Source: Ceratodon purpureus
Lineage: Eukaryota; Streptophyta; Bryopsida; Pseudoditrichales; Ditrichaceae
Reading direction: 5' to 3'
Assembly (NCBI GenBank): GCA_014871385.1
Contig: CM026427.1
Coordinates: 1,360,068-1,424,067 of the forward strand
Length of the DNA stretch: 64,000 nt
Shown here in pieces: positions 44,909 to 59,006 of this stretch. The notes beneath the pieces were generated by a model. It searched no databases. It was not told where the DNA came from and saw nothing but the letters and a program-made list of their open reading frames with translations. Within the stretch, counting starts at the first letter, position 1. Every line of letters starts with the position of its first letter. Made by a program: the position numbers and the translations under genes.

Positions 44909-45036
44909 ATGTTTTCCAATTTGGAGTGGATCTACTAAAAAAGAAACTCAAATTCATTTTACCACTCTTATTAAAGATCCAATGTACTTATGTATAATTT
45001 CTATGGCGTGTATTTTGGTTGCAAAGTTTAATATTA
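39506..45036. other. AT-rich gene desert
   Basis: About 5.5 kb, among the most AT-rich parts of the window, with only short frames. An 80-residue minus-strand frame at 44362-44604 has more normal composition and could be an exon fragment (ends EEAKLRYLKETA), but no family or splice partner was found. I see no RNA gene. Confidence 0.55.
44877..44909. repeat. TA dinucleotide microsatellite
   Basis: A run of TA repeats broken once by TG, in AT-rich DNA. Confidence 0.95.
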
Positions 45037-45212
45037 CTCCATCCGTCTCACTAAAAGAGCATGGTTTGGTAAAATAATCTGTCTCAAAAAGAAAGAGTGG
45101 TTTCTAAATTTGGCCAACTTATTTCTAAAGTTGGCAACTTGTTTCTAAATTTAAAACTGCCCTTAAATATGCTATTATTAGCAAATCATACTCTTTTAGT
45201 GAGACGGAGGAG
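45037..45212. mobile_element. Stowaway-like MITE (Tc1/mariner type)
   Basis: A 176-bp element. The left end CTCCATCCGTCTCACTAAAA matches the complement of the right end (CTCCTCCGTCTCACTAAAAG) over about 27 bp. TA duplications stand at 45035-45036 and 45213-45214. Ends of the CTCC.TCCGT type, TA duplication and short AT-rich body are diagnostic of Stowaway elements, moved by mariner-like transposases that are not encoded here. Confidence 0.88.
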
Positions 45213-45559
45213 TATTAATTTTTGGTGATAGAGTATTGTAGATGATGTCCATTTAGCAAGTTTGTTTATCATGACAAACCACAACGTGACGTGCCATCAC
45301 GACGGGTCGTGTCGTGACGGACCTTTTCGTGACAACACAATAAGGTCCACTTAGGATAAACCTAAGATTGACTTTATAGGTAGGGTAATTTGATTACCCA
45401 ATGCCAACATGTACATTCAACGTGAGACAAAAATTCAACGTATTATATGCAACAACGGCCATAAATTTATCCAAACATGTCATTATAGTTTTTAAAAATA
45501 GATAAAATAAATCTTATTATGTTAACTATAGTCTAACTTCCTATGTCCATCCTTTGTTC

Positions 45560-49703: not shown

Positions 49704-52700
49704 ATGCAGGGATCTCAGCAGCAGAGCTCGATGTCATCAGCGGATGATTCGTCCTTGAAGACGCTGTCATCTGATTTTTTGGGCCTGCTGGGCGAGGGTC
49801 GTGCCTTCAGCGACGTGACGTTCGAGGTGGAGGGACGACAAGTCTTTGCCCACCGGTGCGTGCTGGCGGCCCGGAGCCCATTCTTCCGCATGATCTTCTG
49901 TGGTGATGCGCAGCTGTTGAGCAGTGCGCTGCCGAGGCCCGGCAATTACTCGCAGGTCATCCCGGTGGGGATTGTGGGCTACGATGTGTTCATGCTGTTG
50001 CTGCAGTTTCTATACAGTGGGACTTTCCTGTTGACTGCTCAGAATAGCGGGCGTGGGTGCAAGGACAAGTCCTGCCGGCACACCCATTGCAGCTCTGCTG
50101 TGGAGTTCGGTCTGGAGATGCTGAATGCAGCTGTCTTCTTCGGCGTGGAGCAGCTCTCCACCATCACCCAGGTCAGTTCTTGATTACTCTTTTCAATTAA
50201 GAATGATACAGGATCATCAAAAGAGTGTTTGAAAACATTAAGACATTTGATACAGTCCATACATGTTTCTTTCATTGCAAACGGAAGACAAAGAATCAAA
50301 ACAGGAAGTACATACAGTTTTATGTATCAAGATCATGACAACACCTTTTGTGGTTTGGCTTGGGACCTCTAGAAGCTTAGAGCAAATTTATTTTAATGTT
50401 GGACCTCTTGAAGTTGGGGCTTACGACCTCTTCATGTTCAATTGTGAAGTTGCATCTTCGCATTGTCTTCACTTGTACATGCTTCACTTTCTGACAAGTA
50501 GCTCATTCGAATTTTATAAAAGCAGGTTGATGTACTAATAAGAGCAACAAGCTGTTATTTGTTAGGCTTGAAGTTGGCCTGATTTTTTCAACGTTGGGAC
50601 TAAAGTTGAGGCTTTGAGGACTTGCATGCAATGCTTAGCTACGTCATGAGGTCAAAAAGCTCATGGCTAATTCATGATCTCTGTAATTACGTACTAATTC
50701 ATATACAACTATTCAGCTGCTCATGATTTGTGTGTTGCGACAATTGACTTGTGCAGAAGCACTTGGGGGCCATGGCAGAGAAAGCATCCATCGAGGACGT
50801 AATGCGCATGTTAGCAAGGGCAGGAAAGAAAGACGACCTGCACTTATGGCATCTGTGGAACCTCTGTTCCAAGCTGGTGGCCAAGTCTGGGCTATCTGTG
50901 GAGACTCTGCAGAAACATCTGCCCATAGAGGTGGTACTGGAGCTGGAGGCCATTCGGCACAAGGCCGGACACGGCTTTGATGGCCAGCAAGCCATGGGAA
51001 GTAACTACGCCAACTCGGAGCAGAAGACTAAGCGCATGCAGAAGGCTTTGGACTCGTCTGACGTGGAGCTCGTCAAGCTGATGGTCATGGGAGAGGGCTT
51101 GAATCTGGACAGAGCCTTTGCTCTTCACTACGCCGTCAGCAGTTGCAGCAGGTGCTCGTCCTCTCCAGTTGTTTTTCTTTTCATTTCATCTATTTTTGCA
51201 ACCTTCAAGTGTTGATTCAACTGAAAGGGTATATGTGATTGCCACTAACCTGGACTTCAAGGCTGTTTTGCACTCCTTGTCGTCAAGACTCTTATGTTTT
51301 GCTCCCTTATGAAATCGAACATTGGTTTGACCTTTCACTTATTCGTTCATGCCTCACTTGGCTCACTCACAGTATATTCAACTTTAACTGAACTTGAACT
51401 ATATAAGGTAACGTGGGGATTCTTATTGCCACTCAAAGATTGTCTAAATGAGTCACTGTAAAATATTGTGTCTAGCAAATAACCCAGCTTGATGGAAGCT
51501 CATTTAGTCTCAACACTTTGCATGGTTGGACATGATGCAGGAAAGTGGTGAAGACCTTATTGGACTTGGGAGCAGCCAATGTAAACCTGAGGGGCCCAGA
51601 TGGCCGATCACCATTACACATGGCTGCACACCTCGGAGATCCAGAGAAGATTGCTATGTTGTTGGACCACCAAGCTGATCCCCACATGCAGTCAGCTACA
51701 GGTGCAACTGCAATGGACATAGTGCAATCTGGGGCGACCGAGGTGCTCTCAACTGGACGGTACAATTCCAAGGTGGACCACAACCGGCTCCGGCTCTGCT
51801 TGGAGCTTCTGGAACGAGCCGTTGCGGCCTCAACGCCATCCTTGTCCGCAAAGAGCACAAAAGTGGAGAGTGGTAGCCCGGCATCCATCCTCACCGAACA
51901 CGGCAGCAGTACGTTAATGCCAGAGGAGAGTGACAACTTCCAGGGCTCCATCAATAGAATGATGGACGGCTCAACTAACAACCAGCTCCTGGGCAGCAGC
52001 AGTGATGATTTTTTTGCTTCTTTTTCGAATGGGCTGTCAGGGAAAGGTAAGCCAGAGATCATACATTCTGAATTCCAAAACCTCACCAAGTAAGCATGCT
52101 TCATGTGATATCCTTAAAGATATGGCAAAGAGTTGGATGTTTTAGTCATGACCTTCTAGCAATACTACGTTGTCTATTAGGAGTCGATTTGACGTTGGAA
52201 CTGAAGGAAGAGTCTGTACTGAGTTCAATTTTTCATGTGCTGCAGTGTTTTTGCAGCAAAGAGACTTTTACCAAGAATAGGCTTTTTAAACTTCATCACA
52301 AGTGATCTGGTCTAGTGGAGAATAAACTCATTTCTTCGAGAACTTATATAATATGTGTATTTATGAAAAGGTTGAGATCATTTATGAAAACCCATACATG
52401 TCTCTTCCTCACTTGACACTGTTTTGGACAGTGCATGGCAGAGAGTCAGCTGGGGGGATCAGGGACAATACCAGCGATTCCATTTCAAAGCTACTATTCT
52501 CCTCCAACTCCTTAGGAGAGTTCGACTACTCTGAGCAACAGCTGCAGGCGGAGTCTCGCAACTACAGCATGTTAGACACCATGTCAAGTTTGGAAGCCGA
52601 GCGGCCTCGAAAGTTGCCGCGCTTGTTGGCCGATCTGAAGGACCTCCCATACTTAAGAGAGGTGGTGTTGAAGGACATCACAAATGACGCCGTGGAGAAC

Positions 52701-52805
52701 TTCAAGAGTGTGTATACTCCTAGCGCTGTGGACGAGGAAGTGAGCTCAGGGTGGCAGCTTTATCTTCAAGAGCACACGGACGCTCTCGCACATGATATAA
52801 CGTGA
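49704..52805 (+). CDS. BOP: BLADE-ON-PETIOLE-type BTB-ankyrin co-regulator (NPR1 family)
   Basis: Four exons: 49704-50171, 50757-51151, 51541-52046 and 52432-52805 (TGA), phase-consistent, giving 580 residues. The BTB/POZ domain (about 33-150) has FSDVTFEVEGRQVFAHRCVL and GYDVFMLLLQFLYSG, followed by the Cys/His segment CKDKSCRHTHC. Then come the DUF3420-like EKASIEDVMRML and HLPIEVV, the invariant ALDSSDVELVKLMVMGEGLN, and ankyrin repeats (about 270-360). BOP proteins have no DNA-binding domain; they act in the nucleus with TGA bZIP factors, and BTB domains can recruit CUL3. In plants they control organ boundaries; in moss, the juvenile-to-adult gametophyte transition. The Ser-rich linker and a C-terminal block (LPYLREVVLKDITNDAVENF) extend past the usual end of angiosperm BOP. 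The start is the first ATG in frame; a second at 49731 is possible. If intron 3 is kept, a TAA at 52091-52093 ends the protein early. Exon 3 contains a miR534-like site. Confidence 0.93.
51700..51721 (+). promoter_or_regulatory. Predicted miR534 target site in BOP exon 3
   Basis: The segment TGCAACTGCAATGGACATA (51703-51721) is the exact complement of 19 of the 22 bases of moss miR534 as I remember its sequence; the three unmatched bases are at the 3' end of the microRNA, where mismatches are tolerated. miR534a is reported to cleave BOP1 and BOP2 mRNA in Physcomitrella. The site encodes ATAMDI in the ankyrin region. The match rests on memory of the microRNA and was not searched. Confidence 0.75.
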
Positions 52806-54277
52806 TAATTAGTCATGTTGTAAGGATGTTGTAAGGAATGTTGTCAGCTTAATTAGTGAAGGGGGAGAGTGTTTTGATGATCAAGGGGAGCTGACTGGTT
52901 AGTTTGTCCAGTTAGAGAGGGAAAACATATGTGCAAACTGTGGCAAATGGAATTGGTGGTCAGAGTCTGATCCATGACATTTGGTGGTGAGATGCAGACA
53001 CTATGGAAAGATCTGGTGCTAATTAAGCTATTTAGTGAGGAGATGTGTGGTAGCAGTGTTGGTAGGCTTAAGAAGGGTTGTAGATGCTATTGTGTTTAAG
53101 ATGGAAGAAGACCTCTTGCTTCTTATTTAGGCCAATGTGAATCAAGAGACTGTTTCTTCCTAAGCTTGATGGCTTGTACACACGTTAAAATGGACAAGGA
53201 AACCAAATTAGAGATTACTAGTAAATTAAGCATGATAGTAGTTTGCTGCAGCTTTGAATTGATAAAATCAGATGTGATCAATGTTATTCAATCAAGGTTA
53301 AATATGAAGCATGGTTTATTCAGTTCTTGAACCACAATGGTTTAGAAGATTTCCAATTCTTCATTGGATTAGTCCCTTAAAATCACCTTAATTACATAGC
53401 GTTACCTAGGTGGGCTCAGTGTCTAGAGCATTAAGTTAATCTTGAATTCTAGAGTATCTTATAACATGTTCATTTAAATATGTAAAATTTACAGGTAGCA
53501 ATTTTTTTTTTTTTTCCCTGTAGCCAAATGAGTCCAGTCTGGTATGAGAGTTGAGGTGCAACACAGCTCCTCACAACACTAAGGGACAAGGAGATGCTTA
53601 CTGTTTGTTGCACCAAATCTATTTAAATTACAGTTCAACACACACCAATTCAACATACATAATCACAACATAATCTAAACATCTAACTAATTAAAATTTA
53701 AGATACACTAAGGACAGTTCAACACACACCAATTCAACGTACATAATCACAACATGATCTAAACATCTAACTAATTAAAATTTAAGATAAACTAAATTAA
53801 TATACAGAATTTAAAAAAAATAACCAGGCAACAGCCGCAGGGTTTTAAATCCCTCTGTTGCTACTGATGGCCTCATTTTGATTCAACTCGTAAGGAGCTG
53901 AGTACTTTCTTCAGTACGTAGTACAAGATATATTATGGGAAAGGAGAAAGTTTTCTAAGTTTCAACGGCTGCCCGGGTCTCAGGCTGCGGACGTTCCCAG
54001 GCACCAAGCTATGCCAAGTGGCAATAATTATTGCAATTTAAGCACTGGAGCACAGAGACAGGGCCCACATTTTCGGTGAGCATAAACAAGGCCAGAGCTT
54101 CGGTTTTTCGATCCTTGTGCAGGAGACCAGAGGATCTCTCTCCAAAGTTCTAGTTTTTTGTGTAAATTTGCTGCTTTTACAAAGTTTTTGTGCTTCTGTG
54201 GGGAGTTTTTTGGGAGCTCAGAGGCATGGTTGTGGGCTGTGGATTCAGCAGTAGCTAGTAGTTGGAGAGGGATCAAA
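52806..54277. other. BOP 3' region and upstream region of the GH31 gene
   Basis: No additional gene seen. It contains the tandem duplication at 53630-53797 and a T-run at about 53500. The 5' UTR of the GH31 gene probably starts after about 54000. Confidence 0.5.
53630..53797. repeat. Tandem duplication, 84-bp unit
   Basis: The unit starting ACAGTTCAACACACACCAAT at 53630 is repeated at 53714 with about four differences. It is AT-rich and noncoding, between the BOP and GH31 genes. Confidence 0.9.

Positions 54278-59006
<4,729 letters not shown>

Follow-up and report, generated by a model that had tools for sequence, protein, structure and literature searches.

The 64,000-nt stretch of Ceratodon purpureus DNA analysed here (the window; C7:1360068-1424067 in an assembly of 362 Mb and 151 contigs) contains a gene predicted on the plus strand with a coding span of 49704..52805 and a product of 580 amino acids. 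The model comprises four exons (49704-50171, 50757-51151, 51541-52046 and 52432-52805, the last including the stop codon) and is based on open reading frames, GT/AG junctions and consistent phase. Pfam detected a BTB domain (E 1e-14) and ankyrin repeats (Ank_2, E 6.3e-11) in the product. Part of these repeats is encoded by exon 3 (51541..52046; matches to Ank at residues 308-338 and to Ank_5 at residues 294-348). Residues 13-380 align with solved NPR1 chains, e.g. 7mk3 and 7mk2. The gene thus has the BTB and ankyrin domains in common with the NPR1/BOP family of BTB-ankyrin co-regulators, and its protein gave no match to NPR1_like_C (PF12313) at E values up to 0.001. The absence of the NPR1-like C-terminal domain is a criterion for the BOP clade. 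Both domain features of this clade that were tested were found in the window protein: BTB/POZ and ankyrin domains are present and the NPR1-like C-terminal domain is absent.

A protein search of the genome (E up to 0.001) yielded 12 matches, which correspond to the four exons in the window, four places on contig C2, two on C12 and two on C9. The C2 gene is the closest to the window gene in the genome (411 of 549 aligned residues identical), and PF12313 was not matched in its product either (E up to 0.01). The C12 and C9 genes (C12:956798-958371 and C9:14668296-14669632; loci L041 and L042) match the window protein at 30-31% in its BTB portion and at 47-49% in approximately 50 ankyrin residues. 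Both match PF12313, unlike the window protein, and are referred to here as NPR-type genes. The window gene is BOP-like by its domains and by comparison within the genome: we use this name because of its domain content, its closeness to the C2 gene and its distance from the C12 and C9 genes, which bear NPR1_like_C.

Several other features were observed in the window. A MITE, which we take to be Stowaway-like, is located at 45033-45216 (limits set by eye), with inverted-repeat arms at 45042-45072 and 45178-45208. With 40 of the 467 candidates from a genome search scored, at least 39 further near-full-length copies were recorded, 85-91% identical. Downstream of the BOP-like gene, there is a direct repeat of two near-identical copies (53636-53790, by eye) and a plus-strand gene at 54279-56430 and beyond, whose exon 54939-55622 matches PF13802, the N-terminal domain of glycosyl hydrolase family 31. 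Rfam gave no match at the gathering threshold in the whole window.

Predicted miR534 target site in exon 3

The first-pass annotation had proposed a miR534 target site in the ankyrin-encoding exon of a BOP gene, with 19 consecutive bases complementary to the miRNA. We used the published Physcomitrella miR534-1, UAUGUCCAUUGCAGUUGCAUAC, as given in a table in PMC1838911, as the pairing reference. The putative site occupies 51700-51721 on the plus strand, i.e. the sense strand of a coding exon, and reads AGGTGCAACTGCAATGGACATA. Nucleotides 1-19 of miR534-1 form Watson-Crick pairs with 51721 down to 51703 without exception, nucleotide 20 forms a G:U pair with 51702, and nucleotides 21-22 are mismatched. 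The published miRNA does pair over 19 nt, as had been claimed, and the placement in a BOP-like gene also held, considering the BTB and ankyrin domains, the lack of an NPR1_like_C match and the same site in the closely similar C2 paralog. The near-complete pairing typical of a miR534 target was found, with no mismatch at nucleotides 2-19. The Allen-type penalty of the site is 2.5 (22 nt) or 1.5 (21 nt), whereas the runner-up among 127,958 positions on both strands of the window scored 7.0.

When up to three mismatches were allowed, the 19-mer had a single match in the window, and this had 0 mismatches; the mean for shuffled sequences was 0.04, and at least one such match was present in 4 of 100 window shuffles. 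The genome-wide search (362 Mb) found 17 places with at most two mismatches, two of them exact: the window site on contig C7 and a place on contig C5. By our own arithmetic, about 0.003 exact 19-mers are expected in uniform random sequence of genome size. When viral contigs were scanned with an 18-mer taken from the site, one contig matched, which was judged to be due to chance.

The C2 gene, the one other BOP-like gene found, has kept the site, with nucleotide 1 of the miRNA unpaired. Its penalty is 2.5 when scored with the miRNA encoded on C5 in the same genome. Neither NPR-type gene showed a miR534 site in the 7 kb examined around it, the best sense matches having 7 and 6 mismatches out of 19.

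The site encodes the peptide GATAMDI (residues 342-348), which falls within the Ank_5 match at 294-348. Being coding, the match could be driven by the protein, i.e. the codons for GATAMDI would spell the complement of miR534 by chance and there would be no regulation. The C2 paralog has the same peptide, and the two genes agree at 201 of 394 comparable codons in any case. Nor is the 29-nt run over which they are identical around the site unusual for the coding sequence as a whole, as it was equalled somewhere in 1484 of 10,000 shuffles. The six core codons of the site (one of them ATG) are identical in both genes, a result that 275 of 10,000 shuffles within amino acid classes also gave; the last codon differs (ATA vs ATT). 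Codon conservation around the site thus lends only mild support, because the 29-nt run is not exceptional over the whole coding sequence, and whole-CDS codon conservation was rejected as too weak to prove the site. Three observations, however, argue against a protein-driven match. Given the protein, the gene's own codon usage (site included) assigns the exact seven-codon string a probability of about 0.0003. At what seems, by eye, to be the corresponding place, the NPR-type relatives have the peptide QTALDI, and 7 of the 19 bases of the C12 gene are not those of the site. Finally, a hairpin with the exact complement is found in the same genome. We therefore give very little credence to the protein-driven explanation and prefer to read 51700-51721 as a miRNA target site.

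Candidate MIR534 locus on contig C5

The exact 19-mer on contig C5 (C5:12321795-12321813, minus strand) lies in the 3' arm of a hairpin, and the candidate mature miRNA extends over C5:12321792-12321813. The inverted repeat has 32-nt arms, which are 84% complementary and separated by 226 nt. The minus strand folds with -106 kcal/mol (shuffle mean -77.2, z -5.84) and the plus strand with -72.3 kcal/mol (z -2.98), and for neither strand was any of 100 shuffles as stable; both strands therefore fold well, the minus strand clearly better. In the stem, 20 of the 22 nucleotides of the candidate miRNA are paired with the star arm, while nucleotides 11-12 are unpaired and face two unpaired nucleotides, so that the stem-loop has the few mismatches characteristic of a miR/miR* duplex. 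The candidate is identical to the published miR534-1 at 21 of 22 nucleotides and carries U instead of C at nucleotide 22. This U would pair with window base 51700.

Opposite arms were sought at distances of up to 400 nt from 24 retrieved match loci (L009 was omitted as the same place as L001); the C5 locus (L001) was the best, with 19 of 21 nucleotides paired, and the other 23 had at most 17. A DNA search of the genome with 451 bases from around the hairpin found only the self match and no second copy. No miR534-2-type 19-mer was seen among the 17 genomic places with at most two mismatches. Rfam gave no match for the C5 locus at E up to 1. We read the C5 locus as a MIR534 gene, the one such locus found. 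The first-pass annotation had proposed to look for a MIR534 precursor elsewhere in the genome, and this hairpin with its exact 19-mer is a candidate for it. The objection that the genome has no MIR534 probably fails, because a MIR534-like hairpin is present on C5.

The alternative that the hairpin is no miRNA gene but an inverted repeat that arose by chance, or a displaced piece of BOP, deserves scarcely any credence: the long loop of 226 nt, the absent Rfam match and some BOP-like flank on one arm would fit it, but the fold z score of -5.84 with just two unpaired miRNA nucleotides, the better fold on the strand that would yield miR534, the identity of the first 21 nucleotides with Physcomitrella miR534-1 and the lack of any blastn match to BOP above 14 nt outside the miRNA and the four bases that follow it speak against it.

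Discussion

A second moss very probably has the miR534-BOP circuit known from Physcomitrella, because a near-perfect site in a BOP-like gene and a matching putative miRNA gene occur in the same genome. With high confidence, we regard 51700-51721 as a functional target of the moss's own miR534, which would be derived from C5, cut the BOP mRNA and limit the BOP protein while sparing the NPR-type genes. The MIR534 gene on C5 would be transcribed from the minus strand to give a long stem-loop, from which a 21-22-nt miRNA starting UAUGUCCAUUGCAGUUGCAUA would be diced. Plant miRNAs of 22 nt can trigger secondary siRNAs. Argonaute loaded with miR534 would cut the BOP mRNA between 51711 and 51712 (opposite miRNA nucleotides 11 and 10, respectively), and this cutting would limit the BOP protein. 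Both BOP paralogs would be targeted and the NPR-type genes spared. By analogy with Physcomitrella, the circuit may set the timing of bud formation, i.e. of the passage from the filamentous to the leafy stage. We infer miRNA expression, transcript cutting and the developmental role in C. purpureus from the DNA; the post-transcriptional control of the window BOP-like gene is strongly suggested by the same evidence.

The C5 precursor might also tell us something about the origin of the miRNA. Beyond the miRNA, its antisense arm runs GTGCTCAATCTAGTCGACC, and the BOP counterpart downstream of the target site is GTGCAATCTGGGGCGACC; the likeness to the BOP exon follows the pattern GTGC..AATCT..CGACC. 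Leaving out the 19 bases paired with the miRNA, we obtained an anchored flank score of 17 for the window gene, a value reached by 12 of 6000 window 40-mers, 1 of 6000 C5-region 40-mers and 38 of 3000 shuffles in which GTGC was kept. The C2 paralog had a score of 16, which 17 of 6000 window 40-mers also reached. An 18-nt-anchor version, which left one base of the site inside the 3' flank, gave 19 for the window gene, a score reached by 0 of 1500 shuffles and by 10 of 4000 genomic 40-mers, and 14 for the paralog (5 of 1500 shuffles). The other three flanks, one 5' of the antisense arm and two beside the star arm, showed no significant likeness to either BOP gene (shuffle fractions 0.18-0.68). 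In blastn, the C5 arm and BOP shared only a 23-base identity (19 + GTGC), which no gapped alignment extended. The flank resemblance is compatible with MIR534 having arisen from part of a BOP gene; as four combinations of flank and arm were tried, it is suggestive only. We put forward tentatively, and consider rather unlikely, that MIR534 was born from a duplicated BOP piece (inverted-duplication origin) whose trace is still seen in the C5 precursor. If this were true, a moss miRNA would still show that it descends from the gene it targets, and if the flank resemblance held in other mosses, the source of miR534 would be shown.

The link between miR534 and BOP genes in Physcomitrella is reported in PMC1838911 and PMC3565333, and the latter summarises the miR534a-PpBOP1/2 circuit described by Saleh et al. 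(2011). According to PMC1838911, an inorganic pyrophosphatase is a second predicted target of miR534 in Physcomitrella. Our search for publications on miR534 in Ceratodon or Marchantia, which was weak for subscription papers, found none, which does not imply that none exist. There are reports of miR534 from Marchantia as well.

The first 21 nucleotides of the miRNA, the target family and the sense-strand site in a BOP-like gene, as known for miR534a and PpBOP1/2 in Physcomitrella, are also encountered in Ceratodon. In contrast, nucleotide 22 is C in the Physcomitrella miR534-1 of the published table and U in the C5 candidate. Moreover, both miR534-1 and miR534-2 are listed for Physcomitrella (PMC1838911), whereas one putative MIR534 locus was found in Ceratodon. 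In the wording of PMC3565333, miR534 is moss-specific and miR534a is P. patens specific; a MIR534 gene in a second moss, as suggested by the C5 hairpin, would go beyond the latter term. The type of circuit was already known from Physcomitrella, and what is new here is a probable miRNA locus together with two predicted target genes in another moss. A second moss now has one concrete candidate MIR534 locus and two defined putative target genes. This indicates that Physcomitrella is not alone in having the miR534-BOP circuit, which becomes testable as a conserved developmental timer of mosses.
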